Assembly: GCF_014839805.1 (NCBI RefSeq) | Contig: NC_051119.1 | Span: 10,099,245-10,163,244 of the forward strand | Length of the DNA: 64,000 nt | Source: Manduca sexta | Taxonomy: Eukaryota; Arthropoda; Insecta; Lepidoptera; Sphingidae | Direction: 5' to 3' | The notes under the pieces: model-generated | The model's database searches: none | Told to the model about the DNA's origin: nothing | Seen by the model: only the letters and a program-made list of their open reading frames with translations | Shown here: one piece after another, positions 1 through 63,449 of the stretch | How positions within the stretch are numbered: the first letter of the stretch is position 1 | How the letters are laid out: every line of letters begins with the position of its first letter | Translations under genes and position numbers: made by a program

Positions 1-18
1 TTAGAGAAATACATCAGG
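1..18 (+). pseudogene. 3' end of CSPP1-like exon 2, duplicate copy
   Basis: Six codons reading LEKYIR are followed by a GTGAGT donor, matching the end of the exon at 21714-21872 with one synonymous difference (AAA for AAG). It lies upstream of exon 1 of the same gene, so it cannot be used in order by that gene as assembled. The rest of this exon lies beyond the left edge. Confidence 0.75.
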
Positions 19-622
19 GTGAGTCAGGAACATATTTTGGATAAAAAGACTTTTTATTTCGTGTATACATCAGCAGAGGGGGTTCGGTTTAAAAGAATTA
101 AACCTGTCTCTTCATACGGATTTCCTTAGACAATTTGCTTTGATTAGAACGATTTGCAATCCGTATTTATGCATATCAGTTTATTTTTTGTCGGCTTCAC
201 TTTGGAAAATTTCAACATGTAGTGTGGGAATTACAGTATAAAACTTTAGAAGTAGCCTCTGGACCGTATGTGACTATGCCAAGTTCAAAATTTATGTTAG
301 ACTGGCGCCATCACGTCGGCCATTTCTTTGGCAGGAACCAGCCAAAGTAAGACTTGTACTCCAGAGCCGTAGCTAGGGGGAGGACATTGTGGAGCAATGC
401 CCTATCTTAAAAAACTAATGCCCTACCTTAATAATCAACTAAATTATACATAACTCAATCAAAATATATGGAGCAGTGGGTTTTTTATTTCACGATTTGG
501 AAGTTGGTCCCATAGTAACCTGAGTCATTCACAAGTTAAGTAAGCCAAAAATCGATCGACCAGATCAGATATAGTAACATTTATACTTCGGCCCTAGCTG
601 TAACCACAGCTGCCCTACCTTA

Positions 623-1326
623 CAGTGGCGAAGGGTGAAAATTTTCAAAAGGTAACCCGACGAAATATTTTTTTCTACCATGTAATACGCTGTTAACATG
701 TAATACGCTGTTCACAATAAATTAAAATCAGTAAAATATCATAATACATAATAATTTCCTTCTAACATAAACTTTATTTCTAAACTCTAAATTTAACAAA
801 TAATCACATATTTTGAACATAGGTACTTATCTAAAAGAGCCCAACAAAAATGAATACTTAACCCACACTAAACACAAACACTAATAATTATATATTCTAA
901 ATTATTAAAAAATTTCACGCCAATGGCCCAACATTAAGCCGCAAATTCTCGGGTTACCCTGAAGTACACATACACGCACGCACACATGTATTTTTGCGTC
1001 ACTTCCAAAAGATTAGACAAAGACACCGCGCTACGTGTGAAAGAGACAACAATATCGCGAGGGAAGCTATGCGCGGCCGGGTTCACTTCGAACACTATAA
1101 GGCGCGAGCACTGCGCGCGAGTTACGATTTCACGAATTGATAATAATATGAACTATATACCGTAATCGTTGAAGTATTGATTTAATGAAATATGTAGGTA
1201 TAGGATGACTTGTTTGAATATACTATTATTATTCTAGTTATATAGTTATGTTTTTCATTTATTATTTTAAGTAATTTACAAAAGGTAACCCGGTAGGAAT
1301 CGGCTTGTATGGACGCTTCGCCACTG
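623..1326. mobile_element. Non-autonomous hAT-like element, copy-1 specific
   Basis: A 704-bp insertion begins CAGTGGCGAAG and ends CTTCGCCACTG. It is flanked by the 8-bp direct repeat CTACCTTA (615-622 and 1327-1334). The partner copy near 22490 has a single CTACCTTA and no insert. An 8-bp target duplication with CAG...CTG termini is the hAT superfamily pattern. No transposase frame is present, so it depended on a helper. Confidence 0.85.
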
Positions 1327-1662
1327 CTACCTTAAATTCAAATCTAGCTACGGCCCTGTTATACTCGATACTAAAGAAGGGCTATAGTATACTAACACGT
1401 AGATCTAGATCGCGGAAAAAACGAATACATGGCTTTTTAAAAGATATTATTTCCATTGTCAATGCCATTTCAACTAAACAATGAAAAAGTGAGGCGGGCC
1501 GCCCGCGCGTCTCATTATATTTTTCACACTGCCATTAGTTTGTTTAGAACGTTAGGCTGGTCGCTAAATGGGCGAAGCGCTGTCGTGAGTTGGGGGATTA
1601 AGGATCATTAATCTGTCGTTTTATCCTACTGAAAATATTGATTTAACGCCTTAAATACGATA

Positions 1663-1878
1663 TCAATGCATATTATAAAACAACGTCTCCTTTTCTGTCT
1701 GTATGTATATTATCGATTTTTTCAAAATCTACTGAACGGATTTCTATGAAATTTGGTATGGAGATAGTTTAAGACCCTGGGAAGGTATATATAGGCTTTC
1801 TATAACAGGGAAAATATATAGCGGGACTGTTATCCCGGAAAACTCCTTCACGCGGGCGAAGCCGCGAGCAAAAACTAG
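1663..1878 (+). mobile_element. Short Helitron-like element
   Basis: It ends with the GC-rich hairpin region around gcgggcgaagccgcg, then AAAAACTAG followed by T, the usual 3' terminus of non-autonomous Helitrons. The 5' boundary is approximate. A matching copy is at 22825-23035 in the partner block. Confidence 0.65.
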
Positions 1879-2454
1879 TAAATAATTTCATGCAATTTTC
1901 ACCTATGGCTGCTATGATGCAAGAGGAAAGTTTATGTATATAATTCATTGGTTTATACGACAAAAAATTTAGGCATATATATATGCTTCGCTTTCTCTAT
2001 GAAGCCGGGACAACTTGCCCGTAATAAAATATAACTACGGTTATTTTATCGTCATTTAAACAAAGAATTACAAGGATTAACCAGAGGTCGAAATCATCTC
2101 TATGCAATAACCACACGTTCGCGTGTAATTTAGACAGATCTTAAATCTTGAGGCGAAGATTAGCAACGATGTTATTGTTCGTAATAATGTACACTCGTCG
2201 ATATAAAGCTTTAACTTTGGAACTTAACTATCACAGAGCTATTTTAGAAAAGGAAATTTAAAATTTGGCTTATAAAAAAAACTTTGGAACTTTAATGTCA
2301 TAAAGCCATTTTAGAAAAAAAAGGGCTGCTGTAAAAAAACCGAATTAAAAACAAAAAAAAACATGTTTGTTTTTTATTAGCTTTGACTATTTAACTGACA
2401 TACCAAGACCACAAAGGTACCTAAAGCAGAGATTAGTTTTAGATTATTTTTTTT

Positions 2455-2670
2455 TGCTTTTTTATATGCACTAGGAAAAGCGACCCACTCCATCTGATGG
2501 TAAGCGAAGCGGAGTCCAGATAGAATGTTTATCTCTCGCCACTCGACACAATTATGTCGACGATGATTATGATTTCTTGGGCCACTAGGGCGTATTTTAA
2601 CCCTTACGTACGGTGGTCGTCATCTGGGCGAATACCCTACTACCAGCAACTGTTTAGGTATTCCACGTCA
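2455..2670 (+). repeat. Interspersed repeat family A (5' part)
   Basis: Carries the family A signature: 'CATCTGATGGTAAGC', then AGTCCAGATAGAATG, then an 'ACTCGACACAATTATG' segment. Other copies are at 4118, 6815, 23615, 28064, 30190, 36705, 37975 and 63085. No coding potential is visible. Confidence 0.6.
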
Positions 2671-2693
2671 AACACACCAAAATGGGCTAGTTA

Positions 2694-2881
2694 CATCGAT
2701 ATATAAGTACTACGAACTAAATTTGGCGTTCCGAACATTCACTGTGTTCAACTGAATTGAACTGCAATCCATTCAAACTGACTTAAGAAAGGTCAATATT
2801 GACAGCTTGTGGTGGTCATTTTAGTTCAATTTTGAAGGAATAGTTTATATGGACGTTTGTGTCCATAGAATATACGTCAAT
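2694..2881. mobile_element. 188-bp copy-1 specific insertion
   Basis: Flanked by the 9-bp direct repeat GGCTAGTTA (2685-2693 and 2882-2890). The partner copy near 23875 has one GGCTAGTTA and no insert. Part of the sequence recurs at about 63450-63570. I see no clear terminal inverted repeats, so the element class is undecided. Confidence 0.65.
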
Positions 2882-3795
2882 GGCTAGTTATGTCCCGGTC
2901 TCTTTCTATCAACATTTCAACAAATCATGTCAAATCACTATTATTACGTTTAATACCAACTAATGGCTATACTTAAGGTAATCGTTCAGAAGCACAAACA
3001 AAACGACGTTATTAAAGTAAACATGCCACGCGATATGATTTGCTCATCCATTATTAGTATATGACATGGTTTCCCAAACTGGAAATCTAGTGGGGTAGTT
3101 TTGGTTCAAATTATCTTTAAGTACAAAGCATTATAGACTGGATTGGCTTGCAGCTCGACCCGTAGAACTCTGTTCTACTTTGGGTTGAAATAGTGTTATT
3201 AACTGCCGATTCCGCTAAACTGTCCTAACCCCTACGTATAGATAGTAAGGATAAACCGATAACAATAACATCTGTAAGCCTGTCAACTAACTTTGTTTCG
3301 ATTGGACCATTTTGGCTATCCGACGGTAAAGGTTAAGATAATTTATAAAAATAGGTCATTAGAATTCTATACTGAACTTAAGTTCCTATCTCTGCTTTAC
3401 TTTGATTGACAAGAGCCCTTGGAGTACACCATGAGTTATACTAGCCTTTTATGCGCCTGTTACGAGCTTCTATAACTGCGCCCACGCATGACCCCTTGGT
3501 CATTACTGAGCCACTATGGGGTCGGCGCCATGTGCCCGTACAACGTTAGCATTGCTCTAGCTACGCCACTGCGTACTAATACCAGCATTAAACAAAACAT
3601 CTTATAACGGATCTTGATGATGCAGCGTTACAACTGCTGAAGAAATACCAATTTGCTGTGCATTCGTGGCGAATGGATTGAACACGCTGGCTGTTACCGA
3701 TTGCAACATTTATGAAAGAGACAGTTACTACGTCTCACAGTTTGCGTGGTCTTTCTATATAGATAATTTATATATGGTGTCTTCTATCTGTCGTA

Positions 3796-3920
3796 CAGTG
3801 GCAAAGGGTGAAATATTTCAAAAGGTAACCCAAGCCAAAAAAATATTGCGTTAGTTAATACATCGCGGCCAATTTAACAGTAAGCAAACTAAGACAAACG
3901 TGAAAAGCGCTTCGCCACTA
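3796..3920. mobile_element. Internally deleted hAT-like MITE
   Basis: A 125-bp relative of the 623-1326 element. It begins CAGTGGCAAAGGGTGAAA and ends CGCTTCGCCACTA, and has a near-perfect 8-bp duplication (CTGTCGTA before, CTGCCGTA after). It is present in both block copies, so it predates their split. Confidence 0.75.
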
Positions 3921-4117
3921 CTGCCGTATGTACAATTATGGAAGCACTGCCGGCCTTTAAAGAATAAGGATTGGGCAAGGGTGAAGGTATTTGGGGTGAT
4001 ATCCTTATTTTTAGGAAGCTGTCACTTCAAGTATGTTTTGTGTATCTCAGCCGAGCTCTCCAGTCTGCTGTGGACAGATGTCTACAGCGTGGATCTAAAA
4101 GTTTAAGGGCACATAAA

Positions 4118-4365
4118 TATATATCTTTTTTTTATATGGGTATAGCCAAGTTGCCCCTCTGTACGTGATGGAAAGTGGAGTGGGCTCCAATAGAATTTCG
4201 ACTGATGAAAGATGGTTATATCTCGAGAGTCGACATAACTATGGCGGCCTGTTGGAACTGTATATACACAGGCTGATCCCGGAACGCGACACACTTACGA
4301 ATCTACTATAGCGGTAACATATTGTGTAAGGTGATACGGATATTAAATATATCCTACTAGTAACG
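4118..4365 (+). repeat. Interspersed repeat family A
   Basis: About 240 bp with the family A order: GATGGAAAGTGGAGTGGG, CCAATAGAATTTCG, GTCGACATAACTATG, and an end near ATATTAAATATATCC. Partner copy at 28064-28330. Confidence 0.65.
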
Positions 4366-4517
4366 ACTCTGAATGATCCTATCATCTAGCAAGCCACTAA
4401 ACACAAGAAGCTCATTCAATGTTATTATTAATGACTAGCTGTTTCTCGCGGAAAAGAGCTTTTTCGGAGCAAAAATCCTGCACTCCTCAGGTATAATAAG
4501 AAGGTTATATATTAAAT

Positions 4518-5313
4518 TCATACTAATCTTATAAAGCTAAAGAGTAAACTTTTTTGTTTGAACGCGCTAATCTTTGGAACTACTAAATCGATTTTGATTT
4601 TTTATTATTAGGAAGCTACATTACTCCTTTTTTTTTTTTTTTTGTTTTCGCGGAGAAAGTGCCTTATTACTACCGCCCAGCCTTCGTGGGGGGCGACTGA
4701 GCGGTTATGCTGGGGTAACCGTGCCTTACGGCCCGGCGTTGAGCCGCCCGGATTTGATGATGACCTTCGGGCGACCGCCGGGCCGAGTCCCTAACCCTAT
4801 ATACAACTTAAACCTATGCACGGCCTACCAGCTAAAACTCCGCGGTGGCCCTCTTCGGCGCATTAGGGACGGCTGCGGGCTTCCTCTGACGTTGAAGTGT
4901 CTAGTCTGCGACCGCAGCCGCCCCTGCGCGGTGCCGCCTTGCGGCCCGTCTCCTTAGGGGGGGGGGGGGGGCTCAGAAGCCCCCGCGCACCGAAGGACGC
5001 CCTCGGCGTCTACGGCAGTGTGAGGCCAACAGCACACTGCCGTCCTTCCCGGGGGTCAACCGAAAGATGTGTAAAAATGCACAAAAATGCACTAGGGCGG
5101 ACAGCCCCCTGCTGCCCGCCGACGACCCCCTTCGTGGCCCCTATTAGTCGCCTCTTACGACAGGCAGGGGATACCGTGGTGGAATTCTCCAAACGCCCCC
5201 ATTCCACAGGGCAGTACATTACTCCTCAGTAATATAGGCTATATTTTATCCCAGGAAATTATTTATCCCTGAAAAACTATCTCGTGGACTGAGCTGCAGG
5301 CAAAATCTGCTAT
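4518..5313 (+). mobile_element. Decayed Helitron interrupted by a retroposon
   Basis: The left part has the Helitron 5' landmarks (ATACTAATCTTATAAAGC, a TTTGTTTG tract, GAACGCGCTAATC) and the right part has GTGGACTGAGCTGCAGGC. The retroposon at 4629-5214 splits it. The uninterrupted version is at about 28480-28676. Confidence 0.55.
4629..5214 (-). mobile_element. Full-length ~586-bp poly-A retroposon (family R), copy-1 specific
   Basis: On the minus strand it starts CTGCCCTGTGGAATGGGGGC and ends in a poly-A tail (poly-T at 4628-4643 on plus). It is flanked by the 12-bp duplication TACATTACTCCT (4617-4628 and 5215-5226); the partner copy has one such site and no insert. A matching start is shared with the copy at 57864-58443. 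Poly-A, target duplication and a fixed 5' end mark LINE-mediated retroposition of a SINE-like unit or LINE 5' leader. Open frames inside it reflect GC content and are not a recognised protein. Confidence 0.85.
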
Positions 5314-6257
5314 ATTATATGCAAAAGATTATCCATTCACGACTTTCTTCTTTTACTTCTAACAAGTATCTTAACAAATTGTCGCATTTAATATTAGAAA
5401 GAAGTAAGATTGGAAATCATTGTTGCCATTCATTTTAAAGCTTAACTTTAAGTTGGAAATATCAGCAAGTTATACCTTCATAAATATCCGATACGGCCTA
5501 TATTGGTCGATGTTTCGATTAGTTTTATCATTTAATCTGAAAGTGGAATTGTTACGTGGAAATTAATAAATACGTTGATAGCGTTAAAGTGCTTTTCAAC
5601 TTTTTCGTCAGTAAAAATTTACTATGCTTTAAGCAGCTTATTCCTGCCATTTACAAACAATTGATTTTATTAATCTTTGTTTTGGTTTTACCTTAGTATT
5701 AAATTCAGAAACTTTCGGTTTCATATCATAGCTATTATTTCTTCATATTTCTTACTGGTGCTACGACTACATGCGTATGCGCAATCCTTCGATTTCCAGA
5801 ATACAGGAAAGTGTGAATCTTTGCGGAGTTTTAGTCAGTAACAATATAGTCCGGGAACCCGATTTCCACATATAATAAATACATTAATAATGCTTCCAAC
5901 TACTACATTGACAATGCAAAGTTTTTTTTAAATTCAAATCACGCTAGACAATTTGCGTCCGAGCGTACCGCGTGTGCAGTTGCGTAGGTGCATAAATTAG
6001 CGTAACCACTGAGCAGAACAGTGCTTGTCGACAAGGCAGCTCGTTCGGGACGCATCATGCTTGCTCTACCGGCTTCAGTATAACTCTGCCTCAATCCCAA
6101 CATGGTGTGAGTAACATAGTTTGGCTTTAGTTTTTTTTTAATTTGAATTTGAAAGCATTTTGATAGACCGACGCAAATATTGGCCAAATTGGAATTTGTA
6201 ACAAATGTTTGTTGGTTGTTGTGTGTTGAAAAAAACTTCTTCGATATTTAGGCAATC

Positions 6258-6475
6258 CATCTATTTATACATATTATTATAAAACAGTCCCCCTTTCTGT
6301 CTGTATGTTATCGATTTACTCGAAATCTACTGAACGGAGTTTTATGAAATTGGGTATGGAGATATTTTAAAACCCTGGGAAGGTTATACACTCGTTTCTA
6401 TCCAGACAAAATATATAGCGGAACTTTTATTCCGGAAAACTTCTTTATACGGGCGAACCCGCAAGTAAAAGCTAG
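6258..6475 (+). mobile_element. Short Helitron-like element
   Basis: Ends in gggcgaacccgcaagtaaaagCTAG followed by T. It is internally related to 1663-1878. Partner at 29622-29839. The left end is approximate. Confidence 0.6.
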
Positions 6476-6814
6476 TTGGTCCATAAAAATCTAGAATTAA
6501 ATTGTTCTACTTTGTATTTCGTGCTAACATCATTTCTTTTGTCATGCATCTATGAACGTAATTCAGCGATTTTCTTCGGTTTGTTTACGATTTATTCAAG
6601 GTTCGTTTCGTTTTAATTGGTGTATATTCTTTTTGTCTTGTATGTTTTAACGAGGTTCATATCCATCCATATCATATCTCATCACTCGATTTACCAAAAT
6701 ACTTTAATAACAAAAGAAAAGCTGATAATTAAAAAAAAATACATACAAATGCAAAATATTCTTTCTATTTCGTGTTTTTATATTTATTTACACATTACAT
6801 ATTTTTTCGAATAT

Positions 6815-7100
6815 TAAGGATTCGGTGTCTACATGCCAGTGATAGGATATATTTTATATCCGCCCGGATAGCGACCACAGAACACAAGGTGTTAAAACCC
6901 GCCGTAGTGGCCCACGTAGAAGTCGCGTTCCGGGATCAGCATGTGTATATCCAACAAGTCCAACAACGGTTACAACAGGCCGGCAAAATTGTGTCGACTG
7001 CCGAGGGATAATCATCTATCGTCAGTCGACATTCTATTGGACCCCTGTCCACTCACTATCCGATGCAGTGGGTCACTTTGATCTGCACGTGTATAAAAAA
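6815..7100 (-). repeat. Interspersed repeat family A, reverse orientation
   Basis: Reads on the minus strand as the family A unit: the reverse of GATATATTTTATATCCGCCC at its end and CCACTGCATCGGATAG at its start. Partner at 30190-30460. Confidence 0.6.
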
Positions 7101-7696
7101 ATAATGTCGGTATTTTTAGGTGTGGTTGTGTTCGCAAACGCACCTTTATTGTTGTTTCACCGGTAATTAACCCGTCAAACTTTCATTATGAACTAATTAA
7201 TGGCACACGTGGCGGAAATTGAAATGTCAAAGTAACAATGCTCTTTTGTGTTCATTTATTATTAAAATGAATTCACTTTCGTTAGCTTCTGTTAGGAAGG
7301 TTGAGACAGTTCGATATCTGGTTAGTAGACGCTAGTTCGTAATCTCTTTTGGTTGTTTAAAACATTGAGGATTTAATTTTGTGCACTTTCTGGTGTTTCT
7401 TCCAAGACTAGAGGCGTGAGATCGTATAATGCTTTTGTATCCGAATGACAAAATTTCTAATGCCAAATATTTTTACAATCATGGTTTCCATTGGATTTTT
7501 TTTAAACTCTTCTAAATGCAACAACTTACGTTTTACGTTTCCATAATATTTGATTTTTAAACATAAATAGCTGTAGTATTAGGATTATAGCAGTGAGTGC
7601 TTTAAGTATGAATTGAAATGAAGTTTCCGCCCATAAATAGTGACGTAAGTATACGTAAGTTATTCATTAATTACGCGTAACTTTAAGTAACATGTA

Positions 7697-7880
7697 TAAT
7701 ACCAGCCCTGTGTTTATACTGTCCCACTGCTGGGCACGGGAGTCTTCTACTACTGAGAGGGTTTAGGCCTTAGCCCACGCTGGTCTAGTGCGGATTGGCA
7801 GACTTCACATACCAAATTCCTTATACAGAACTTCTCAGGTATGCACGTTTCCTCACTATGTTTTCCTTTAACGGTAAAGC
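7697..7880 (-). repeat. Non-LTR/SINE-type 3' fragment
   Basis: Contains 'TGTCCCACTGCTGGGCACGG' followed by CTACTACTGAGAGGGTTTAG and a TTTTCCTTTAACGG end. From memory this block is widespread in lepidopteran genomes as a retroelement tail. Partner at 31059-31245. Confidence 0.5.
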
Positions 7881-8735
7881 AAGCGATATTTCACAAAGAT
7901 AGCACATGAAATTATAATAACTTTCAATAGTTTTATAATTATGTATTAAGTTATTATTTGTTGTCACTAGTCTATTCCCTCTACACTTTACACCCTCTAA
8001 TTATTATTACAATATCTTATATCCAAAACTTCTGTAATCGTATTCATTAGTTCTTAAGCTGTAATGATGTGCGTATTAAGTAAGAAGGTAAGTTTCATTC
8101 ATGAAGTACTTAACATTTAATTTAATGAGTGCTCGCATTATTTCGCAAATGTATTCCATGTCTTGATGGAGGGCGAGTCCATTACCACAGTTCTAATAGA
8201 ACGCTAAACTTAGAACACTATCATAGGGGTGGGTTCCATAGGCGCGGCTCACGCGACGGGGCGCGGTGCGAGGCGCGGCGGTTAACCAAAAAAACATTAC
8301 CTTAATAACTTTTTGCGACGCAGAGCTGGTCTCGTACTACTTTGATCTACGTAAAACTAAATGAAAATCAATTGTATTAAAATATATACTTTTTATCTAA
8401 CATTATAAGTGCGAAAGTGGATTGGTTTTTGTTACTCAATCAATCCAGAACGGCTTAACGGTTTTAGATGAAATTTCGGCTAAAGATATATTATAGTCTG
8501 GAATATTATATAAACTTTTCATCCTGGAATAATATAAATATCTAACAGCAGAGTGATCAGTCTGGAATGAGCAGTGTTGTGTACATTACGCTAACCTTGT
8601 ATTAATCTAGAACGTCATTTACAGTAAGTGACTGTGGGGTGTCTATTATTTTTACATTCTCTTCCGCAATCATGTTAAATGACTAAACAACTAAAACCTT
8701 TATGATCTTTAACGAGGCGTTTTATGATCAGAGTA

Positions 8736-8912
8736 ACTACTGGACATAATAAGACTTAACATCTCATGTCTCAGGATGGCGAGCGCGGTGGAATACTAAA
8801 CAATACTTTGTAATTCAAGTTGTTGGATGGTGTCTCTACTGTATGGGCGGTCGTATTGCTTACCATCAGGCGAACGGCAAGCATGTCTCGTCATTCAAAG
8901 CAATAAAACAGT
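8736..8912 (+). repeat. Interspersed repeat family B tail
   Basis: Signature: CTGGACATAATAAGACTTAA, then CTCAGGATGGCGAGCGCGG, GTATGGGCGGTCGTATTGC, TTACCATCAGGCGAACGGC. Further copies are at 32092, 35877 and 39620, with a reverse copy at 11516. Confidence 0.6.
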
Positions 8913-9378
8913 CTCAATTCAAAACCAGAACAACCAGAGGTGCCCTTGGGCCAGTTGTTTGATGCTTCCCACTTGAAATCTGGCGCTATTCAGGACACCC
9001 ACTCTGATCTATCGCTATGCCAACAATTACAGTTGATTCGAATTTAATGCCGCATATAGTGTGGCTCCGGACGAAACGTCGCGCGGGCTCCAATGCGGAG
9101 TCGTTATTTTGACTAATGGCTGTATGTCATTTGTCATCGTCAATGTAATTTGTATCAGTTTGCGTCACAAAAAGCGATTATTTGTTTGCCTTTGCTTCGT
9201 GGAATTTGTATCTATTCTCTGAGCAATGTGATAGGTATCTTTAAGGTTTTAAGGCAAGGTGACTTTTCTGGCTTATACGGTGAAGACTAATCAGAGATCT
9301 TTACAGACTATCTCACGTTAGTCGTGACAATTATGTCGTCCTGTCTAATTGCTGTCACATATCTGAATCTTTCCTAGC

Positions 9379-9416
9379 GTGCAACTGTGTATTGTGTGCG
9401 CAATACACAGTTGCAC
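9379..9416. other. Perfect 16-bp hairpin
   Basis: GTGCAACTGTGTATTG and its exact reverse complement are separated by the 6-nt loop TGTGCG. An identical hairpin is at 32741-32778 in the partner block. It lies in intronic/repeat DNA and its function is unknown. Confidence 0.8.
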
Positions 9417-9503
9417 TCACTGTTCCTTCACTCTCATAGTCCGGTGAGACGGCAATCCGACATAACTGGAGAGAGCTCAGGCGCAGGACCAACAGCTTTA
9501 CGT

Positions 9504-9632
9504 GCTTAAATCATCATCATCAGCTGCAGGTGTCCACTGCTGAACATGGACCTCCTCTGTAGATTTCCAGGCATCCAGCGACCTCCTGCAACTTTTATGA
9601 GGTCATCTGTCCACCTCGTGCTTAGATCGCAT
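9504..9632 (-). mobile_element. LINE 3' fragment (VQQW type)
   Basis: After CATCATCATCAGC, the minus strand encodes EEVHVQQWTP, a decayed version of the 'EAYVQQW' end I recall for lepidopteran non-LTR polymerases. Partner at 32868-32996; a third copy is at 25160-25325. Confidence 0.5.
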
Positions 9633-9709
9633 TTTTATAATCTTCATGTGTCCTTTAATTTATTGTACGTAAATTAATCAAAGGATTTTTTGTTTTGTCA
9701 CCTATAGAC

Positions 9710-10209
9710 NNNNNNNNNNNNNNNNNNNNNNNNNNNNNNNNNNNNNNNNNNNNNNNNNNNNNNNNNNNNNNNNNNNNNNNNNNNNNNNNNNNNNNNNNNN
9801 NNNNNNNNNNNNNNNNNNNNNNNNNNNNNNNNNNNNNNNNNNNNNNNNNNNNNNNNNNNNNNNNNNNNNNNNNNNNNNNNNNNNNNNNNNNNNNNNNNNN
9901 NNNNNNNNNNNNNNNNNNNNNNNNNNNNNNNNNNNNNNNNNNNNNNNNNNNNNNNNNNNNNNNNNNNNNNNNNNNNNNNNNNNNNNNNNNNNNNNNNNNN
10001 NNNNNNNNNNNNNNNNNNNNNNNNNNNNNNNNNNNNNNNNNNNNNNNNNNNNNNNNNNNNNNNNNNNNNNNNNNNNNNNNNNNNNNNNNNNNNNNNNNNN
10101 NNNNNNNNNNNNNNNNNNNNNNNNNNNNNNNNNNNNNNNNNNNNNNNNNNNNNNNNNNNNNNNNNNNNNNNNNNNNNNNNNNNNNNNNNNNNNNNNNNNN
10201 NNNNNNNNN
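9710..10209. other. Assembly gap, exactly 500 N
   Basis: A run of exactly 500 undetermined bases. A round fixed length suggests a scaffolding placeholder, not a measured distance. Any reading frame through it is meaningless. Confidence 0.98.
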
Positions 10210-11515
10210 CTTGGGCTTGGTGTTACAGAGATGATTTATGCATTATTTTATAGGAATAATAGAACCATTTCTAAATTAGAAAAAAAATCTGTCTACAATG
10301 GGAGTAAAGAAATAATCGCTATAGAATATAGCGTAAAACACTTTTCTGTGAATATCTTTGTGTTTACCCGATAGCACAAGATGTTCACAGTACCTAATTA
10401 TTGTCCATTTGATTGCCGTGTTGACTAATGAACAGCTGGCTTAGATAATAACCAGAATTGAAATGATCGTATGGGATAGACGAGGATCGATATAAAGGTA
10501 CTTATCGCAAGATGAAACTAAGTGTAGGTTGCATATCTTCTTTTATCTACTCCTTCATGGAATCAGGCATGAGTTTATACTGTTTTTATATTATTGAAAG
10601 AACTATTTCGTTTTCAATTGGACGAATTCCTTTAGTGTTACAACGCCATGTAGCTATGCCACAATTAACACAATGGTGTTGGTGGTTCATCGTTACTTTT
10701 TGAAATCCGGTAGAACAAGCAAAATCAGTCGAGCAAGCAAGAAATCAAAGTCGGTTGTTGAATAAGCGTGGGTAGTTCATTAAATCAGCAATCGTCAAAA
10801 TATTCTCGGAAAGCCGTAGTCGTTAAAATAAAAATATCAAACCAAAAACATTCACTTGCGCAGAAGTACAGAAAGCGAATAACAATAATAATATACATTA
10901 ATAAAAGACAGCCTGATATTCCCGATACCGAAAGTCAGTTACTTATTCATAATAAAAAATATTTTATTTTCCCATTGTAATACAATCTAATATTCTTTAA
11001 TGGCTGATATAAAAATAAAAGAAGAATATTGATAAATGTTTCATAAGTGTACAGTCAAGCCCAATTTCGCCCGTCTCCTTTATTGTCCGAAAAAATTGTA
11101 AGTAAGTATATTTCGATAATTTAGAAATAGTAAACGCGTATTTACACTTCAAGCAGTTTACTACCTTGATGACGTCATGTCATGGCGGCACACGTTTCGC
11201 ATCTTTGTAAAACAGATAAAAAAAGTCAAAACTTTGAATTGAATTTAAAAAATTTATTTATAATTTTATGAACTGAAACTACTATTTTCCGATTGCCTTT
11301 TGATGAAACTATCTTATTTATGTAATTTTGTTTTTTTTTCTCACATACACTAAAATACCCTATTACATTGACTTATAAAGAAAAATAGTAAAATGTTCAC
11401 CCGCAACAAGATTCGGATCTTTACCACATCTTTATCAACCGCAACCTCTACGTGGACAGCAATATGCCGGCCATCAGTTTGTATCAGTGTTTAGTACAAA
11501 GTATTATTTGGTATT
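10210..11515. other. Intergenic, nothing recognised
   Basis: AT-rich sequence to the right of the gap. Short frames lack domain signatures or sensible splice contexts. It has no counterpart in the duplicated block. Confidence 0.5.
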
Positions 11516-11710
11516 CCACTGTGTTCCTCATCCTGAGACATTAGATGTTTAAGTCTTATTATGTCCAGTAGTTACACTGGCAACAATGTTCTTCAACGCG
11601 AGACATAACAGTGAATGCAAACTGCTGCTTGGCGGCAGAAATAAACATTGCGGTGGTACATACCCAGGCGTGCTTTCACATATGGGAGACCTACCACCAG
11701 TAGTAACCAA
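11516..11710 (-). repeat. Interspersed repeat family B, reverse copy with upstream part
   Basis: On the minus strand it reads CTGGTGGTAGGTCTCCCATA, then GCCGCCAAGCAGCAGTTTGC, then the CTGGACATAATAAGAC signature, joining the family B tail to a more 5' portion. Confidence 0.6.
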
Positions 11711-12399
11711 ATTAAATTTAGATTAAGGGTTATTAAGGCCCTGTTGAAAAATAGTAAATACTAAGTGAAAAATAATCGTGGTAATTATTGTTTTTGGAAT
11801 ATATCGTGATTAGTACGTTCAACAATATCCGAAAAATAGTTTCATTTCGATGTCTAACATGTCGCGTAAATGTAAGAAATCATGTCCTTTTGTTTTATTG
11901 AAATTTCAATGCTTACTATTTCTTTTTTCTAAGATTCTTGGTAAAATACGATATGTCCTAGTGTATGTTAGGATCTTCTAAAAAAATAAGGTTTGCAACA
12001 CTGGGCTACACTCATTAGTCAGAACTCAGAATAAGAACAAGCATAGAAGGAATCTAAATTACCTTCGTATACTTATCCTATTTTTTCAAATAGGCCAAAA
12101 CCGTTGAAAAGAACGAGACAAATATTATGTTGCTAAGGTCGGCTTGCGTACACTTTAAAATAATCAAATGGTTACCTTTGGTCATCTTTATGATGCCGAA
12201 TTAAAAAGCAAATAAAATGTCAAATGTGCCCACTTGCCAACCTCATAAAACAATGTCACAAACGCGCCCACACAATTTAGTTACGTTATACTTCAGCGCG
12301 TGCTTTTCAAAAGTGGCTACATGTTTTGTAATATTTTTGTTGTTAATTTTAATAAATACACAGTGCTGTTTAAATAAAATATAGCCCTACGAACAAGCA

Positions 12400-12940
12400 A
12401 TGGCCTGCGTTATTGTGGGATGTAAATCTCATTCTTCTCGTAAAGAAAATAAAACTGAAATCATCAGCTTCCATCGGTGAGTAAACAAAAAACCCAATAT
12501 ATTTGCTTAAACCCTGTACATAAGTGCAAAAAGTGTTATTAATTATACTTTATTATGCTGTAGTCATATTATAATCTGCTGTTGGCCATTCGATACAGTA
12601 ATTATTAAGTATTTTTCATTTTTACCAATTTACGTAGTCGAGTTCAATAGTGTTGTGCTGCATATTCTGTCGATAACAGTTAGTATATTGTAGTTTACTA
12701 TTTTGCATAATTTGCCTTTTACTTACAATATACGGTGGTGTAGTGGTAAAAGCCACTTGGAAACCGCGCGCGAAGGCTGGGGTCGAGGAAACTATCTCAT
12801 TTTCATAGTGTGTTTCATACAATGTGTTTCATTGCAGATTCCCCAAAGATGATGTTATGAGGAAAAAATGGATCCCAATTGGCATTGGAAAAAACAGCAC
12901 CGTGTTTGCTCTAAGCATTTCGGCAAAGTTTTACTAACAT
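12400..12940 (+). pseudogene. THAP-domain gene fragment, frameshifted
   Basis: Exon 1 (12400-12476) starts ATG and reads MACVIVGCKSHSSRKENK followed by TEIISFH, then a GTGAGT donor in phase 2. A TTGCAG acceptor opens exon 2 at 12838, restoring Arg and giving RFPKDDVMRKKW. This is the N-terminal half of a THAP zinc finger (C-x(4)-C, then FHRFP and W). The second half, HRVCSKHF, is present only in the +1 frame from about 12880, so the reading frame is broken near 12878-12888 and then stops. THAP domains bind DNA and occur in host regulators and P-element-type transposases. Whether this was a host gene or a transposon cannot be told here. Confidence 0.6.
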
Positions 12941-14330: not shown

Positions 14331-14337
14331 AAATAAT

Positions 14338-23200: not shown

Positions 23201-26200
23201 TATTTTATCGTCATTTAAACAAAGAATTACAAGGATTAACCAGAGGTCGAAATCATCTCTATGCAATAACCACACGTTCGCGTGTAATTTAGACAGATCT
23301 TAAATCTTGAGGCGAAGATTAGCAACGATGTTATTGTTCGTAATAATGTACACTCGTCGATATAAAGCTTTTACTTTGGAACGTAACTATCACAGAGCCA
23401 TTTTAGAAAAGGAAATTTAAAATTTGGCTTATATAAAAAAAAAAACTTTGGAACTTTAATGTCATAAACCCATTTTAGAAAAAAAAATGGCTGCTGTAAA
23501 AAAACGTCGTGAAAAACAAAAAAAAACATCTTTGTTTTTTATTAGCTTTGACTATTTAACTGACATGCCAAGACCAAAGGCCCTAAAAGCAGAAATAAGT
23601 CTTAGATAGTGTATTTTTTATATGGACTAGGAAGAGCGACCCACTCCATCTGGTGGTAAGCGAAGCGGAGTCCAGATAGAATGTCGACTTAACATTATCC
23701 CTCGCCAGCAGGCACAATGCCAACGGGTTTGAAACCGGGTATACCTGCAAGTGATCAGGAACGCCTATATATATAGATATAACCTCTGTTTTACGGTGGT
23801 TGTCATCCGGGCAAATACCCTACCACCAGCACCTGTTTAGGTATTCCGAGTCAAAAATCACACCAAAATAGGGCTAGTTATGTCCCGGTCTCTTCCTATC
23901 AACATTTCAACAAATCATGTCAAATCATTGTTATTACGTTTAATACCACCTAATGGCTATACTTAAGGTAATCGTTCAGAAGCACAAACAAAACGATGTT
24001 ATTAAAGTAAACATGCTTCCATGTGATTTGTTCATCAATTATTAGTATACGACTTGGTTTCCCAAACTGGAAATCTAGTGGGGTAGTTTTGGTTCAAATT
24101 TTCATTAAGTACACAGTATTATAGACTGGATTGGCTTGCAGCTCGACCCGTAGAAAACAATTCTACTTCGGATTGAAATAGCGTAATTAACGGCCGATTC
24201 CCCTAAACTGTCTTAACCGGTACGTGTCAATAATAAGGATAAACCAATCACAATAACATATGTAAGCATGTCAACTAACTTTGTTCCGTTTGGACCATTT
24301 TGGCTATCCGACGGTAAAGGTTAAGATTATTTATAAAAATAACCCAAAACACTTCTATTTTGAGATAAAGTTCCTATCTCCTTTACTTTGGTTGACAAGA
24401 GCCCTTAGAGTACACCATGAGTTATACTAGCCTTTTATGCGCTTGTTACGAGCTTCTATAACTGTGCCCACGCATGACCCCTTGGTCATTACTGAGCCAC
24501 TATGGGGTCGGCGCCATCTGCCCGTACAACGCTAGCACCGCTCTAGCTACGCCACTGAGTACTAATACCAGCATTGAAGAAAACATCTTATAACGGATCT
24601 TGATGATGCAGCATTACAACTGCTGAAGAAATACCAATTTGCTGTGCATTCGTGGCGAATGGATTGAACACGCTGGCCGTTACCGATTGCAACATTTATG
24701 AAAGAGACAGTTACTACGTCTCACAGTTTGCGTGGTCTTTCTACAGGGTCATTTTGTAACCCTAGACTTAAATTTAACTGCGAGAAAGTCATCTTGAAAG
24801 AAGTAGTTTACTATAAGTTTTTCTAACCTAAGGTCAAAAACAAAAAAGTAAAATTTTCAAACAAAATAAATATTCAAATAGTCATTTTATTTTTACACAC
24901 CCTTTTGCCACTACTACTATACTAGAATTCGTCGGAGCGGCAACATCGCACACAGTCATTGATAATATTATGCTCACGCACACGAACGAGTGATGCACAC
25001 TCGGAGCGCAAGGGTAGTTCGTCGCACCGCACCGCAACCGAACAGCTGATGTCGTCGATTTAACTACCTAGGGTTTTGTGTCGAGCGACATCACTCGATC
25101 AACAATTAGACCAGCAGCGACGACGGTACGCCGACGTTACAAAAAGACACATACCTAAACATCATTATCATCATCAGCCACATAAAGTCCACTGTTGAGA
25201 ACATAGGCCTCCCCTAAAGATTTTCAGACAGACCTGTCAAAAGCTGCCTGCATCCAATATGTTCCCGCGACGTTCATCAAGTCGTCTGTCCACCTTGCAG
25301 GTGGACATCCAACGCCAACATAAACATCACGCACTAATCATCACATTTCATTAGAACAATATTTTCTATGCTCAAACTATCATCATAAGCAAACGACACT
25401 AATCAAACAACCACAACTGCATAAGTTAGGTACACATAACACATGATTTCCGTAATTTTAAAGTGGTTTTCATTCTTTTAAATCAAAACACACACATTCT
25501 AATGTAGGTAGTTCATCCATTTTAGTAGATAAGTAGGTATAATAAATATGTTCAACGGTTAGATTTATAACACTCATAACAATAAAATATCATTCTGCAA
25601 GTCTGGCATCTGAAACAATTAATAACGAAGTTACAATCTTGATAATAATTAGTTAATGTGATAGTTTGAGGTAAAAATGTCGAGCGACGGGATGCGTCAC
25701 GGCGCGGCGCGGCATCCCAATAGGTATCTAACATGTTTTCAAAATAGTAAATGCGTTTACCAATACCTAATGATGATTTGTAGATTGCTTGTTCCTTTAA
25801 AAGTTGTTTCATACTTCAAAGTATTTTTAATACATTTAATTTGTGACTACCTTGGTGCCGCAGTTGTATTATAGTACGGATGCTTTGCTAAGATCACGGG
25901 ATCGAATCCCTGGTCGGACAAAATGATATTGGATTTTTCCATTCAGTACCTATCGCAAATTCATAAATCCACATTAAAATCGTAATGACAGCCTCCGATA
26001 GAAACATAATCAATAGATTGTGATTAGTTGTTTCGCGTACGCGTCAACGATGCAACTTCGCGATCGTAAAATATTCAAAATGACAAAAATATTTCTAAAA
26101 ATAGACTCTATTTTATAGGTGTTAAGGTCGCATTTAGGGGACCACTTTAAATTTCTTTGTGCCTGACCGACCAACACGCGACACACGAGTTTAGCGAATT

Positions 26201-29200
26201 CCACAAAGTAGCGGCAAGGGTCTGGAGTAGTGTTGCCTGATGTCCCGATTTGCACGGGACGTCCCGATTTTCAGAGTTCTGGGGACGTAACCCGTTTTGC
26301 ACCAATAAAATTATTAAAACCATTAAGTATTATGAAAAATAAACTACGCATTAAGCACTGTGTTGAGTGCGACAATGCAATCAAAATAGCACGTATCTCA
26401 CTAGCGCTGAAGGTACAGTTTTGTTTTATTATCTTGCTTAGAGATGCGACTACCCGGCGATCTGTGCTTTGATGTTGAAAACAGAAATCCAAATTAAACG
26501 CAACTTTAGCATGACTTGCAGTGATATTTTTTGTAAAACGCAATACATAAAACTTAAATTTAAAAAAAATACTTGCTTTTTTATGTCCCGATCTACAACA
26601 CTAAATCTCGATTTGTTTTACCTTCTTGATTTTAAACAAATTGTCCTTGGCAACACTGGTCTGGAGGTACACGATATTTGACGAGCCAGAGTTTTACAAC
26701 TATCACGTGCCCTCGCAGTGTTACCAAACTTTTTATTATTAATTTATTGTGCAATATCTTGTTTATTTTATACCCTGTATGCCTATTGAAAATGAATGAC
26801 TGAATCCAAAATCTCTATTATACTTTATTACTTAAAATAATGTTTCAAAAATACTAAAATATTGCTGTGTATTATTTTAATTAGGTAGACTTTTCATTAA
26901 TCATTTCATCATAAATCATTACTTATTTTATTTTGTAATACAATTGTGTGTTAAATCTGTTAGAACATCATGTAATAAAAAAAATCTAATATCAGAATTT
27001 TTGAAATGCTGTGTCGTTTTAGCAAGCTTTTTGGTAAAAAGTTTATACTGACAACACTGCGAGTTTAGGCGAGAAAGAGTACGACTATTGTATTGAATAA
27101 TCGCGCGCTCTTCGGACTCGGTCAAAGACTCGGACGCATTGCCATAGTGTCTATCTAGCAAAGAAATGGTACAGAAGGCATAATATGACGTTCGGTAATG
27201 TCTACGTAGTCTTCTTTTAGATATTATGACAAACCAAAATATTAATGTTGGAATTAAAATAAATGTCGGAATATTATGTGGAATCTAAAAAAATACGATA
27301 CCAATAGATTTAAATCTTGTAACTTTAGTAATTATGAAGGTAATTTTTTTGGTAAGAAAACTATTTTATTAACGAAAATAACGTTTATAATTGACGAAAT
27401 ATTTTTTGTAGTAAATAATTATTGACTCAATGAACTGCTGCAACCAAGTCAGTAAACGTATTGGGAGTTCATTTGTGAGCTGACCTTCTGAATCCTATAG
27501 GTTCGGTAATAATATCATCAGCTGTGACGTAGTTCATTCACTTCAGTTAAGCGCGCTAAGAAACAGCGTGATCAAAAACCATAAATCTAAAATCGGGATT
27601 ATTGACGTAAATATTCGTTACTTATGAATAATATTTTGCACGGTGTTAGCAGAGGTCACCACGAACCTGTGGTTTCATTTAGTAACGCAATGTCGAAATG
27701 ACCCTGTATATAGATAATTTATATATGGTGTCTTCTATCTGTCGTACAGTGGCAAAGGGTGAAATATTTCAAAAGGTAACCCAAGCCAAAAAAATATTGC
27801 GTTAGTTAATACATCGCGGCCAATTTAACAGTAAGCAAACTAAGACAAACGTGAAAAGCGCTTCGCCACTACTGCCGTATGAACAATTATGGAAGCACTG
27901 CCGGCCTTTAAAGAATAAGGATTGGGCAAGGGTGAAGGTATTTGGGGTGATATCCTTATTTTTAGGAAGCTGTCACTTCAAGTATGTTTTGTGTATCTCA
28001 GCCGAGCTCTCCAGTCTGCTGTGGACAGATGTCTACAGCGTGGATCTAAAAGTTTAAGGGCACATAAATATATATCTTTTTTTATATGGGTACAGCCAAG
28101 TGGGGGCACCCCTGCGCGTGATGGTAAGTGGAGTGGGCTCCAATAGAATGTCGACTAAGAGATGATTATCCCTCGGTAGTCGACATAACTATGCCGGCCT
28201 GTTGGAACCGCATATTCATCAGCTGATCCCGGAACGTGACACACTTACGTGGGCCACTATAGCGGAAACATATTGTGTAAGGTGGTCGCTATCGGGACGG
28301 ATATAAAATATATCCTACCAGTAGCGAATCTGAATGACACTATCTTTTAGCAAGCCACTCAACACAAGAAGCTCATTCAATGTTATTATTAATGACTAGA
28401 TGTTTCTCGCGGAAAAGAGTTTTCTCAGGGCCAAAATCCTGCACTCCTCAGGTATAAAAAGAAGGTTATATATTAAATTCATACTAATCTTATAAAGCTG
28501 AAGAGTAAACTCTTTTGTTTGAAGGCGCTAATCTTTGGAACTACTAAATCGATTTTGATTTTTTATTATTAGGAAGCTACATTACTCCTCAGTTATATAG
28601 GCTATATTTTATCCCAGGAAATTATTTATCCCTGAAAAACTATCTCGTGGACTGAGCTGCAGGCAAAATCTGCTATATTATATGCAAAAGATTATCCATT
28701 CACGACTTTCTTCTTTTACTTCTAACAAGTATCTTAACAAATTGTCGCATTTAATATTAGAAAGAAGTAAGATTGGAAATCATTGTTGCCATTCATTTTA
28801 AAGCTCAACTTTAAGTTGGAAATATCAGCAAGTTATACCTTCATAAATATCCGATACGGCCTATATTGGTCGATGTTTCGATTAGTTTTATCATTTAATC
28901 TGAAAGTGGAATTGTTACGTGGAAATTAATAGATACGTTGATAGCGTTAAAGTGCTTTTCAACTTTTTTCGTCAGTAAAAATTTACTATGCTTTAAGCAG
29001 CTTATTCCTGCCATTTACAAACAATTGATTTTATTAATCTTTGTTTTGGTTTTACCTTAGTATTAAATTCAGAAACTTTCGGTTTCATATCATAGCTATT
29101 ATTTCTTCATATTTCTTACTGGTGCTACGACTACATGCGTATGCGCAATCCTTCGATTTCCAGAATACAGGAAAGTGTGAATCTTTGCGGAGTTTTAGTC

Positions 29201-32200
29201 AGTAACAGTATAGGCCGGGAACCCGATTTCCACATATAATAAATACATTAATCATGCTTCCAACTACTAAATTGACAATGCAAAGTTTTTTTTAAATTCA
29301 AATCACGCTAGACAATTTGCGTCCGAGCGTACCGCGTGTGCAGTTGCGTAGGTGCATAAATTAGCGTAACCACTGAGCAGAACAGTGCTTGTCGACAAGG
29401 CAGCTCGTTCGGGACGCATCATGCTTGCTCTACCGGCTTCAGTATAACTCTGCCTCAATCCCAACATGGTGTGAGTAACATAGTTTGGCTTTAGTTTTTT
29501 TTCAATTTGAATTTGAAAGCATTTTGATAGACCGACGCAAATATTGGCCAAATTGGAATTTGTAACAAATGTTTGTGGGTTGTTGTGTGTTGAAAAAATC
29601 TTATTTGATATTTAGGCAATCCATCTATTTATACATATTATTATAAAACAGTCCCCCTTTCTGTCTGTATGTTATCGATTTACTCGAAATCTACTGAACG
29701 GAGTTTTATGAAATTGGGTATGGAGATATTTTAAAACCCTGGGAAGGTTATACACTCGTTTCTATCCAGACAAAATATATAGCGGAACTTTTATTCCGGA
29801 AAACTTCTTTATACGGGTGAACCCGCAAGTAAAAGCTAGTTGGTCCATAAAAATCTAGAATTAAATTGTTCTACTTTGTATTTCGTGCTAACATCATTTC
29901 TTTTGTCATGCTTCTATGAACGTAATTCAGCGATTTTCTTCGGTTTGTTTACGATTTATTTAAGGTTCGTTTCGTTTTAATTGGTGTATATTCTTTTTGT
30001 CTTGTATGTTTTAACGAGGTTCATATCCATCCATATCATATCTCATCACTCGATTTACCAAAATACTTTAATAACAAAAGAAAAGCTGATAATAAAAAAA
30101 AAAAATACATACAAATGCAAAATATTCTTTCTATTTCGTGTTTTTATATTTATTTACACATTACATATTTTTTCGAATATTAAGGATTCGGTGTCTACAT
30201 GCCAGTGATAGATATATTTTATATCCGCCCGGATAACGACCACAGAACACAAGGTGTTAAAACCCGTCGTAGTGGCCCACGTAGAAGTCGCGTTCCGGGA
30301 TCAGCCTGTGTATATCCAACAAGTCCAACAACGGTTACAACAGGCCGGCAAAATTGTATCGACTGCCGAGGGATAATCATCTCTCGTTAATCGACTTTCT
30401 ATTGGACCCCTCTTCACTCACTATCCGATCCAGTGGGTCACTTTGATCTGCACGTATATAAAAAAATAATGTCGGTATTTTTAGGTGTGGTTGTGTTCGC
30501 AAACGCACCTTTATTGTTGTTTCACCGGTAATTAACCCGTCAAACTTTCATTATGAACTAATTAATGGCACACGTGGCGGAAATTGAAATGTCAAAGTAA
30601 CAATGCTCTTTTGTGTCCATTTATTATTAAAATGAATTCACTTTCGTTAGCTTCTGTTAGGAAGGTTGAGACAGTTCGATATCTGGTTAGTAGACGCTAG
30701 TTCGTAATCTCTTTTGGTTGTTTAAAACATTGAGGATTTAATTTTGTGCATTTTCTAGTGTTTCTTCCAAGACTAGAGGCGTGAGATCGTATGATGCTTT
30801 TGTATCCGAATGACAAAATTTCTAATGCCAAATATTTTTACAATCATGGTTTCCATTGGATTTTTTTTAAACTCTTCTAAATGCAACAACTTACGTTTTA
30901 AGTTTCCATAATATTTGATTTTTAAACATATAGCTGTAGTATTAGGATTATAGCAGTGAGTGCTTTAAGTGTGAATTGAAATGAAGTTTCCGCCCATAAA
31001 TAGTGACGTAAGTATGCGTAGGTTATTCATTAATTACGCGTAACTTTAAGTAACATGTATAATACCAGCCCTGTGTTTATACTGTCCCACTGCTGGGCAC
31101 GGGAGTCTTCTACTACTGAGAGGGTTTAGGCCTTAGCCCACGCTGGTCTAGTGCGGATTGGCAGACTTCACATACCAAATTCCTTATACAGAACTTCTCA
31201 GGTATGCACGTTTCCTCACTATGTTTTCCTTTAACGGTAAAGCAAGCGATATTTCACAAAGATAGCACATGAAATTATAATAACTTTCAATAGTTTTATA
31301 ATTATGTATTAAGTTATTATTTGTTGTCACTAGTCTATTCCCTCTACACTTTACACCCTCTAATTATTATTACAATATCTTATATCCAAAACTTCTGTAA
31401 TCGTATTCATTAGTTCTTAAGCTGTAATGATGTGCGTATTAAGTAAGAAGGTAAGTTTCATTCATGAAGTACTTAACATTTAATTTAATGAGTGCTCGCA
31501 TTATTTCGCAAATGTATTCCATGTCTTGATGGAGGGCGAGTCCATTACCACAGTTCTAATAGAACGCTATACTTAGAACACTATCATAGGGGTGGGTTCC
31601 ATAGGCGCGGCTCACGCGACGGGGCGCGGTGCGAGGCGCGGCGGTTAACCAAAAAAACATTACCTTAATAACTTTTTGCGACGCAGAGCTGGTCTCCTAC
31701 TACTTTGATCTACGTAAAACTAAATGAAAATCAATTGTATTAAAATATATACTTTTTATCTAACATTATAAGTGCGAAAGTGGATTGGTTTTTGTTACTC
31801 AATTACTCCAAAACGCCTTAACGGTTTTAGATAAAATTTCGGTTAAAGATATATTATAGTCTGGAATATTATATAAACTTTTCATCCGGGAATAATATAA
31901 ATATCTAACAGCAGAGTGATCAGTCTGGAATGAGCAGTGTTGTGTACATTACGCTAACCTTGTATTAATCTAGAACGTCATTTACAGTAAGTGATTGTGG
32001 GGTGTCTATTATTTAACATTCTCTTCCGCAATCATATTCAATGACTAAATAGCTAAAACCTTTATGATCTTTAACGAGGCGTTTTATGGTCAGAGTAACT
32101 ACTGGACATAATGAGACTTAACATCTCATGTCTCAGGATGGCGAGCGCAGTGGTATACCAAACAATATTTGTAATTCAAGTGGTTGGATGGTGTCTCTAC

Positions 32201-35200
32201 TGTATGGGCGGTCGTATTGCTTACCATCAGGCGAAAGGCAAGCGCGTTTCGTCATTCAAAGCAATAAAAACAGTCTCAATTCATAACCAGAACAACCAGA
32301 GGTGCCCTTGGACCAGTTGTTTGATGCTTCCCACTTGAAATCTGGCGCTATTCAGGACACCCACTCTGATCTATCGCTATGCCAACAATTACAGTTGATT
32401 CGAATTTAATGCCGCATATAGTGTGGCTCCGGACGAAACGTCGCGCGGGCTCCAATGCGGAGTCGTTATTTTGACTAATGGCTGTATGTCATTTGTCATC
32501 GTCAATGTAATTTGTATCAGTTTGCGTCACAAAAAGCGATTATTTGTTTGTCTTTGCTTCGTGAAATTTGTATCTATTCTCTGAGCAATGTGATAGGTAT
32601 CTTTAAGGTTTTAAGGCAAGGTGACTTTCCTGGCTTATACGGTGAAGACTAACCAGAGATCTTTACAGACTATATCACGTTAGTCGTGACAATTATGTCG
32701 TCCTGTCTAATTGCTGTCACATATCTGAATCTTTCCTAGCGTGCAACTGTGTATTGTGTGCGCAATACACAGTTGCACTCACTGTTCCTTCACTCTTATA
32801 GTCCGGTGAGACGGCAATCCGACATGACCGGAGAGAGCTCAGGCGCAGGACCAACAGCTTTACGTGCTTAAATCATCATCATCAGCTGCAGGTGTCCACT
32901 GCTGAACATGGGCCTCCTCTATAGATTTCCAGGCATCCAGCGACCTCCTGAAACTTTTTATGAGGTCATCTGTCCACCTCGTGCTTAGATCGCATTTTTA
33001 TAATCTTCATGTGTCCTTCAATTTATTGTACGTAAATTAATCAAAGGATTTTTTGTTTTGTCACCTATAGACGCGTACCTTCGCCTCGTGTTGAACAACC
33101 GAAGAAACCTCTAATGTTATTTTCTAGGTTAGTTGTTACGTGTTGTCTACACGGATTACTGGAGTCTAGACTAGGCATTAGCATTAGTCCATATTAAAAC
33201 CCACTCAAGCGCAAACATTTTGTGTATTAGATGACTCGTTTTGGAGTGCTATTTCAATACAGTTCTTGTGTCTTGGTGATGAGGTGTAATAGCTACAATG
33301 CTCGTCAATGTCGTATGGAGTAGAGTGGGTGGACCATGAACTGATGTTTGCATTCTTTCTTGTTGCTATTTTTATTTAAATTAATGGCGGCAAAAGACAC
33401 CGCCATTTTTAATAAAAGATCTCAATCGCTTTTTTCGTTCTTAAAAATGAACCAATCAGAACAAAGCTTTTTTGACTTTCGTACAAATGAGTTATTTTGA
33501 TTGGTCCATTCCGGGAATCGGATTGACATTGGGTTCGTTTATTGAAAATGCCTGTAAGACAGCGTGAACTGAAGATCTGTCTACATCGCGTTGGTGGTCT
33601 CTATTGCAATGTTAATGGCGACTCCAGACGTTAGTATTTAACGACGCTAAAGGAGAGAAAGCGAAGGGTCTAAGCAAACGTTGTTGGGGCCATTGTTATC
33701 ACGGGGGTACATGCTAATTAGTAACTTATTTGTTATGCGTATTCCAGACATGTGAATGCGCAGACGGCAATTAGTCTGGCAGTAATATTTACCCTGGAGA
33801 GATCGCTATTACACAAAAGGGTTATTATTGCATATTTCCCTTCCATCCCTTAATTTCACAGCCTAGTTACATAAGCCATTGCAGTTAAGTCGTTCGCCTG
33901 TATATCGTATAGGATATCCTGGTCACTGAAGCGACACTCGTTAAAATTGTATGCGGACGTAATGGAAGTACTAAAGTAAAAAAAAATGAGAAATGGAATT
34001 GATGTGTTCAAAGTAACGATATATTCACTGCGACGTTCTGAAACGCATTTCAAGTGAACGAGACACTATTTTCTTACCGAATATCATGTTTTAGCATGAA
34101 CATTCGTTCGGAAACTCGGTGCTCTTTCGATCAACTCGGTATAAAAAAGATAGGGTAGGAAGTGAGAGGTTGGCTCTTAGAGACTCCGTGGTACTTCAAA
34201 ACGATATTCCGAAGATTAAATATGAGCTGTATCGTTCCTATGTTCCTGTCTTGGCAATTTTCCAACCACCTTAAAGTTACTCCATTGAAGTTATGGAATA
34301 CGCCCGGCGAATTAAGAAACTAGCGGAGAATATAGGGTTGATGGACAAAATAAATTTGAGGATTTTTTGAAGTATGTCGATTTGAAATATATTTGGTAGT
34401 GGCTGGGCATATTGATTAAGTATGAATTTGACTGTATTTTTAATGTGGAAAACGAAATAACTTGATAGGTTCCAGAAATATGATGTCTAAATTAATGTTC
34501 GGTATGTAATATAGATAGTTCCTAAGAATATAGTAATCCCGTCGTATTGCTGGGGCCATCGCCTTGATGCGGTTTTGTATGAAACTAAAATCCTATGTAC
34601 AATAAAGTAATCGTAATCAGCAAAGTAGTCCTCTAATTGGCTTGACTTATTTTTATAAGCAGTGTAGATTCTACACGTATTTAGAATCAAGTTTTTGTTT
34701 GCACTCACTTCAACGATAAAAGAATGTTTAAGAAAATAAATTTACTTTCTATAAAATGGACGAAAATTAATTATGTGTTTATTTTACATGATCAAGTAAA
34801 ACAACATTTTTATCATGAGTTTTGTGACAACCCTATGAAAATAAAATTTTGTGAAACTGCCGCCAGTAGAGCTGCGGCGACCGCACTAACCCAAGGACTT
34901 GAACACAGATCGGTATCTAGTGGCAATAATATAAATTGCTGGAAAGTTCTAGACATCTAGACCGCGTCGCATTGAATTAGGTCGAAAGGTGTGTGTTAAT
35001 GATTTCAAGAGAATTATGACTATCATGGTTCATTGCTGCACGACAGATTTCAGAAACGCTTTAGTAATCAGTTTAAGCAATGTTTTTGTTGAAGATTTTC
35101 TAATGCCGGCGCCACACATAGCAAAAATATTTGAACATTTATTTGAACACTTGTTTGAAGTCATGCGTGGCGCGGGTATTTGCGTATTTGTGCAAAGTTT

Positions 35201-55953: not shown

Positions 55954-55987
55954 TTTGGATTTACTTTTGGATACAGATTTTCTCTAA

Positions 55988-63320: not shown

Positions 63321-63449
63321 TATTAAATCAGTATAGCGTTTAAAAGGTCTGACGTCACAGTAATGTTAGTTATAAGATAGCACCGACATTATTTACGATG
63401 TTGATATCTATGTTTTTAATTTATTCAAATTATGTCACCGCGAGCCTTC

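Follow-up and report, generated by a model that had tools for sequence, protein, structure and literature searches.

An 8.2-kb duplication beside a 500-N gap in the Manduca sexta reference probably represents two unmerged haplotypes of one locus

We analyzed a stretch of 64,000 nucleotides from the Manduca sexta genome (GCF_014839805.1, NC_051119.1, positions 10,099,245 to 10,163,244 of the forward strand), hereafter the window, in which positions are counted from the first base. A caldesmon-like/CSPP1-like gene runs along its + strand. We searched for related proteins with a gene model built from exons of the window, restricting the search to those whose length was between 0.55 and 1.75 times that of the query. 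The search scored 7,990 candidates and gave at least 86 matches at E ≤0.001, the best among the matches listed being 'caldesmon-like [Manduca sexta]', a protein of 594 aa. The records of its relatives carry other names, CSPP1 in Leptosia nina and trichohyalin-like or CCDC66-domain elsewhere, which we repeat as given in those records. A frame-by-frame check placed 593 of the 594 residues of the M. sexta protein in exact blocks on the + strand, from 17175 to 45568. An intron interrupts the codon of the remaining residue, N190, with AA at 39562–39563 and T at 39989; counting it, 594 of 594 residues are accounted for on the + strand of the window.

Coding exon 1 lies at 17175–17279 and coding exon 2 at 21753–21872. 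The remaining coding blocks, all on the + strand and all exact matches, occupy 38727–38900, 39394–39563, 39989–40076, 40336–40554, 43194–43325, 44060–44155, 44380–44481, and 44993–45568, the last of them directly followed by the stop codon; splice ends in these blocks are good to about one codon. Exact peptide matching in all six frames of the window found exon 1 and the body of exon 2 once each, making exon 1 single in the window and leaving exon 2 whole only at the position given above. A premature stop that had appeared in exon 2 came from an acceptor misplaced upstream by about 40 nt; in the M. sexta protein this exon begins at 21753, after the stop. Pfam, run on the open frames of five of the ten exact-match exon blocks of this gene, found nothing that reached a curated cut-off.

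Other features lie within and beyond the introns. Intron 1 contains a 252-codon open frame (19308–20066) with a weak match to Pfam DDE_3 (E 6.6e-5; 23.2 bits, below the cut-off of 28.6), which we take to be the remnant of a Tc1/mariner-type transposase. The intron between the coding blocks at 40336–40554 and 43194–43325 holds, at 40942–42683, two blocks of about six and about five tandem 123-bp units, each then followed by a CAAA run; BLASTN found related sequence at 48185–48379 (− strand) and similarity between the flanks of these blocks and 63725–64000. Further along, 51587–51829 on the − strand matches Pfam RNase_Zc3h12a (E 8.7e-23) and, going by this domain, likely belongs, as an exon, to a Zc3h12a-type RNase gene encoded by the opposite strand. 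A 300-codon open frame at 55084–55983 (− strand), for which Pfam gave nothing at E 0.001, may belong to the same gene or to a neighbor. ARAGORN found 0 genes in the window.

The original prediction for this locus was that positions 1–9709 repeat 21855–33072, that both copies come to about 8.2 kb once inserts are removed, and that the first copy ends at a 500-N placeholder. All three points were borne out. Comparison of the window with itself by BLASTN and MAFFT showed that 1–9709 (copy A, 9,709 nt) is collinear, on the same strand (+), with 21855–33072 (copy B, 11,218 nt), in an alignment that spans the first to the last base. End to end, MAFFT gave 292 mismatches and 31 gaps in 8,175 aligned columns, or 96.4% identity. 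Four gaps are longer than 100 nt and all the rest are at most 21 nt; after subtraction of the four large inserts, copy A measures 8,203 nt and copy B 8,253 nt. The last base of copy A, 9709, directly precedes the sole N run in the window, which is exactly 500 N long (9710–10209) and presumably marks a join made by a Hi-C scaffolder.

Exact matching of the 9,690 distinct 20-mers of copy A against three stretches found 4,938 in copy B, as against 0 in 10210–21854 and 90 in 33073–44290, so the similarity of the two copies is far beyond chance. Short repeats in both copies do recur elsewhere in the window, as they might if a dispersed repeat or large transposon had been met twice by chance. We give that idea next to no credence: an 8.2-kb collinear match and the 20-mer counts both stand against it, and we rejected it because the match contains the tail of a coding exon together with its donor site.

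This tail bears on the gene itself. The last 18 nt of coding exon 2 form the start of copy B, and the corresponding 18 nt of copy A (1–18, + strand) encode LEKYIR, with one synonymous difference from B, and are followed by the donor GTGAGT. Copy A therefore opens inside coding exon 2 while exon 1 lies downstream at 17175–17279, just as had been predicted. That prediction also called this order impossible for a working gene, which overstates the case; the exon-order argument is weaker than that because an intact gene preceded by a partial tandem duplicate of itself would show the same order and look identical. Nor did its warning of false gene calls find a counterpart here. Within the length range of the protein search (0.55–1.75 times the query) we saw no false extra gene, a range that a short false fragment would escape, and the M. 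sexta protein is intact and agrees with the exon 2 sequence of copy B. Judged by this agreement, the protein record of the main gene seems unharmed by the duplication.

The limits of the copies provide a further line of evidence. Copy A reaches the window start on one side and the N run on the other, and the right limit of copy B faces only the end of the contig that carries A. The start of the right-hand contig (10210–21854), the stretch that shares no exact 20-mer with A, has a single short repeat match to it by BLASTN (11495–11579, 88%). An assembly gap, the 500 N after copy A, separates the two copies on one scaffold, and a gap of this sort, lying between the members of a duplicated pair within a scaffold, has been described as a mark of false duplication (PMC9516828). 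Homology almost surely continues leftward beyond the window start, given that A begins within an exon and at a point set only by the arbitrary choice of window, and the partner of 10210–21854 is predicted to sit just left of the window. Within the continuous sequence of the window we saw no duplication boundary or junction; either might still be hidden in the gap or further to the left.

The lack of a visible boundary may count against a real partial tandem duplication, in which a segment comprising the gene's 5′ part and flank would have been copied, the intact copy running from 10210 onward, the upstream copy being truncated, and the assembler having broken at the repeat. Such an event is permitted by the order and orientation of the copies. 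Contigs often break at repeats, and true duplications interrupt them as well, so that the presence of the gap is not decisive by itself. That one M. sexta-named protein appears among the at least 86 matches listed (all within the length range of the search, and many of them bearing no name) counts weakly against a second, real copy. Taken together, we consider a real tandem duplication unlikely.

The four large inserts differ in which copy they occupy. Each is bounded by a short direct repeat at the flanks of its alignment gap, and the sites are filled and empty in both directions, with three inserts only in A and one only in B. The first of those in A, of 712 nt (615–1326), has an 8-nt direct repeat, CTACCTTA, and inverted ends, CAGTGGCGAAG/CTTCGCCACTG; we take it to be a hAT-like DNA transposon, the superfamily being assigned from repeat length and ends only. 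The second, of 196 nt (2686–2881), has a 9-nt direct repeat, GGCTAGTTA, and part of it (2696–2812) is similar to 63448–63562 (91%, BLASTN). The third, of 598 nt (4617–5214), has a 12-nt direct repeat, TACATTACTCCT, and a poly-T at its left end, which suggests in both type and strand a retroelement-like fragment in reverse orientation (− strand); a relative lies inverted at 57866–58442 (93%, BLASTN). By BLASTN, 4628–5212, 38979–39268, and 57866–58442 are dispersed members of one retroelement-like family, 87–93% alike. The insert found only in B, of 2,965 nt (24742–27706), has a TA direct repeat and inverted ends, CAGGGTCATTT, and is presumably a DNA transposon of Tc1/mariner-like type, going by the TA repeat and inverted ends only. 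Two of the four inserts thus carry the inverted ends typical of DNA transposons. Insertions that followed a tandem duplication would yield the same filled and empty pattern.

Beyond these four sites, 3.6% mismatches separate the copies, a level of difference that fits alleles, although paralogues could look alike. The mismatches are strongly clustered: over 81 windows of 100 columns the ratio of variance to mean was 7.1, compared with at most 1.6 in 2,000 permutations, and 23 of the 81 windows had no mismatch while 9 had 10 or more. The difference between A and B is 5.9% up to position 4617 and 1.7% beyond. In bins of 300 nt, it reaches 8–20% at 2401–2700, 3001–3600, and 4201–4500, beside stretches below 1%. 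One divergent bin includes a repeat, 4128–4299 being similar to sequence near 63101 and 37973 (BLASTN). Patches of 8–20% are high for alleles and count against an allelic origin. Alleles of mixed ancestry usually show patchy divergence, and gene conversion can likewise produce it. The same features could be had if the 5′ part of the CSPP1-like gene had recently been duplicated in tandem, if both copies had since acquired new transposon insertions, and if conversion tracts had kept parts of them nearly identical, a course of events that we think improbable. The 23 windows without a mismatch weigh against a scaffolding error that united two paralogous loci from different places, in that non-coding sequence is nearly identical over long stretches. 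The join is merely a placeholder and would allow such an error; the orientations agree, however, and Hi-C would have had to put a distant locus exactly here, so that we rate this explanation very unlikely indeed.

The source of the window is probably the assembly JHU_Msex_v1.0. It was made from one male moth by a pipeline that took nanopore reads (N50 9,156) through Canu, polishing, and 3D-DNA v180922 in '-mode diploid', and has a contig N50 of 402 kb and a scaffold N50 of 14.2 Mb (PMC8022704). Its table gives 6,517 contigs and 4,057 scaffolds (PMC8022704); by subtraction from the published figures, the gaps total 1,085,311 bases, a mean of 441 per join, which is near 500 and not equal to it. 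For a beetle genome, contigs scaffolded with 3D-DNA were described as having 500 Ns between them (PMC10320752), and the 500-N run in the window is consistent with an origin in JHU_Msex_v1.0. In a literal count over the main text of the M. sexta paper, the terms 'haplotig', 'purge', and 'heterozyg' have 0 occurrences; by the same count '3D-DNA', printed there as '3 D-DNA', also scores 0 (PMC8022704). Duplicated BUSCOs stand at 5% for JHU_Msex_v1.0 in Table 1 of a later paper, the highest of five columns (the others being 0.6, 3, 0.3, and 2.9%; PMC10234378), columns that may differ in gene set because that table takes its M. sexta value from an earlier supplement, whose assembly had been assessed with insecta_odb10 in the M. 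sexta paper (PMC8022704). This raised figure speaks against a real tandem duplication, and, as far as these sources go, the figure and the absent haplotig terms raise the prior for an artefact. An algorithm that merges overlapping haplotype contigs exists and is described as having stringent default settings (PMC6421076).

We infer that copies A and B are unmerged overlapping haplotype contigs of one locus, and hence an artefact of assembly, with a probability of roughly 0.87. Collinearity, insertions in both directions, patchy divergence, the end of A at the 500-N run, and the lack of an internal boundary all fit the second-haplotype reading that the original prediction had put forward. The end of A at the join, the lack of an internal boundary, the two-way insertions, and the patchy divergence are compatible also with a true tandem duplication at which the assembly was interrupted.

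Under the haplotype reading, the window would join two contigs of a diploid M. sexta, the left one ending at 9709 with copy A at its end and the right one starting at 10210 with copy B inside it, each representing one haplotype. The ends of both contigs would cover the same chromosome segment, and the assembler would have kept the haplotypes apart over their differences, which amount to about 3.6% of aligned bases, patches of 8–20%, and four transposon-like insertions. The Hi-C scaffolder would then have placed the overlapping contigs side by side with its standard 500-N gap. The diploid mode of 3D-DNA runs a haplotype merge algorithm. Since an algorithm for such pairs exists and is part of that mode, the A/B pair must, if it is allelic, have escaped merging, the merge step having presumably failed to catch it; that such an escape is needed counts against the haplotype reading.

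The true locus would then be single-copy, with about 22.9 kb of scaffold sequence (10210–33072) represented twice. If so, the paired copies yield four candidate insertion polymorphisms. The reference of this model insect probably still contains unmerged haplotype contigs at 500-N joins, of which this locus is a worked example, and in M. sexta it is advisable to check depth around such joins before relying on calls of copy number, paralogues, or variants there. The duplication is most likely an artefact of a well-described kind, biologically ordinary, with no real duplication behind it.

Several known systems resemble the arrangement seen here. As in the heterotype false duplications described by Ko et al. 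(2022), two diverged versions of a locus lie on one scaffold with a gap between them, and an exon is partially duplicated; their criteria were depth, linked reads, and k-mers, whereas the present case is known from assembled sequence alone (PMC9516828). A real tandem segmental duplication would likewise be adjacent, in the same orientation, and diverged by a few per cent, but here no boundary or junction was seen and the copy stops at a contig end. In another sphingid, Hyles lineata, the authors attributed the 3% duplicated BUSCOs of their initial assembly to uncollapsed haplotigs, which would have the same cause and were likewise indicated by a raised duplicated-BUSCO figure; there whole contigs were purged by coverage, whereas in M. 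sexta it is the ends of contigs that appear to overlap (PMC10234378). The undercollapsed heterozygosity described for Aedes aegypti AaegL5 offers a parallel among insect Hi-C scaffolds, with overlapping haplotype contigs ordered adjacently (PMC6421076). In AaegL5, such pairs were removed by rerunning the merge with more permissive settings and a whitelist, whereas the M. sexta pair remains (PMC6421076).
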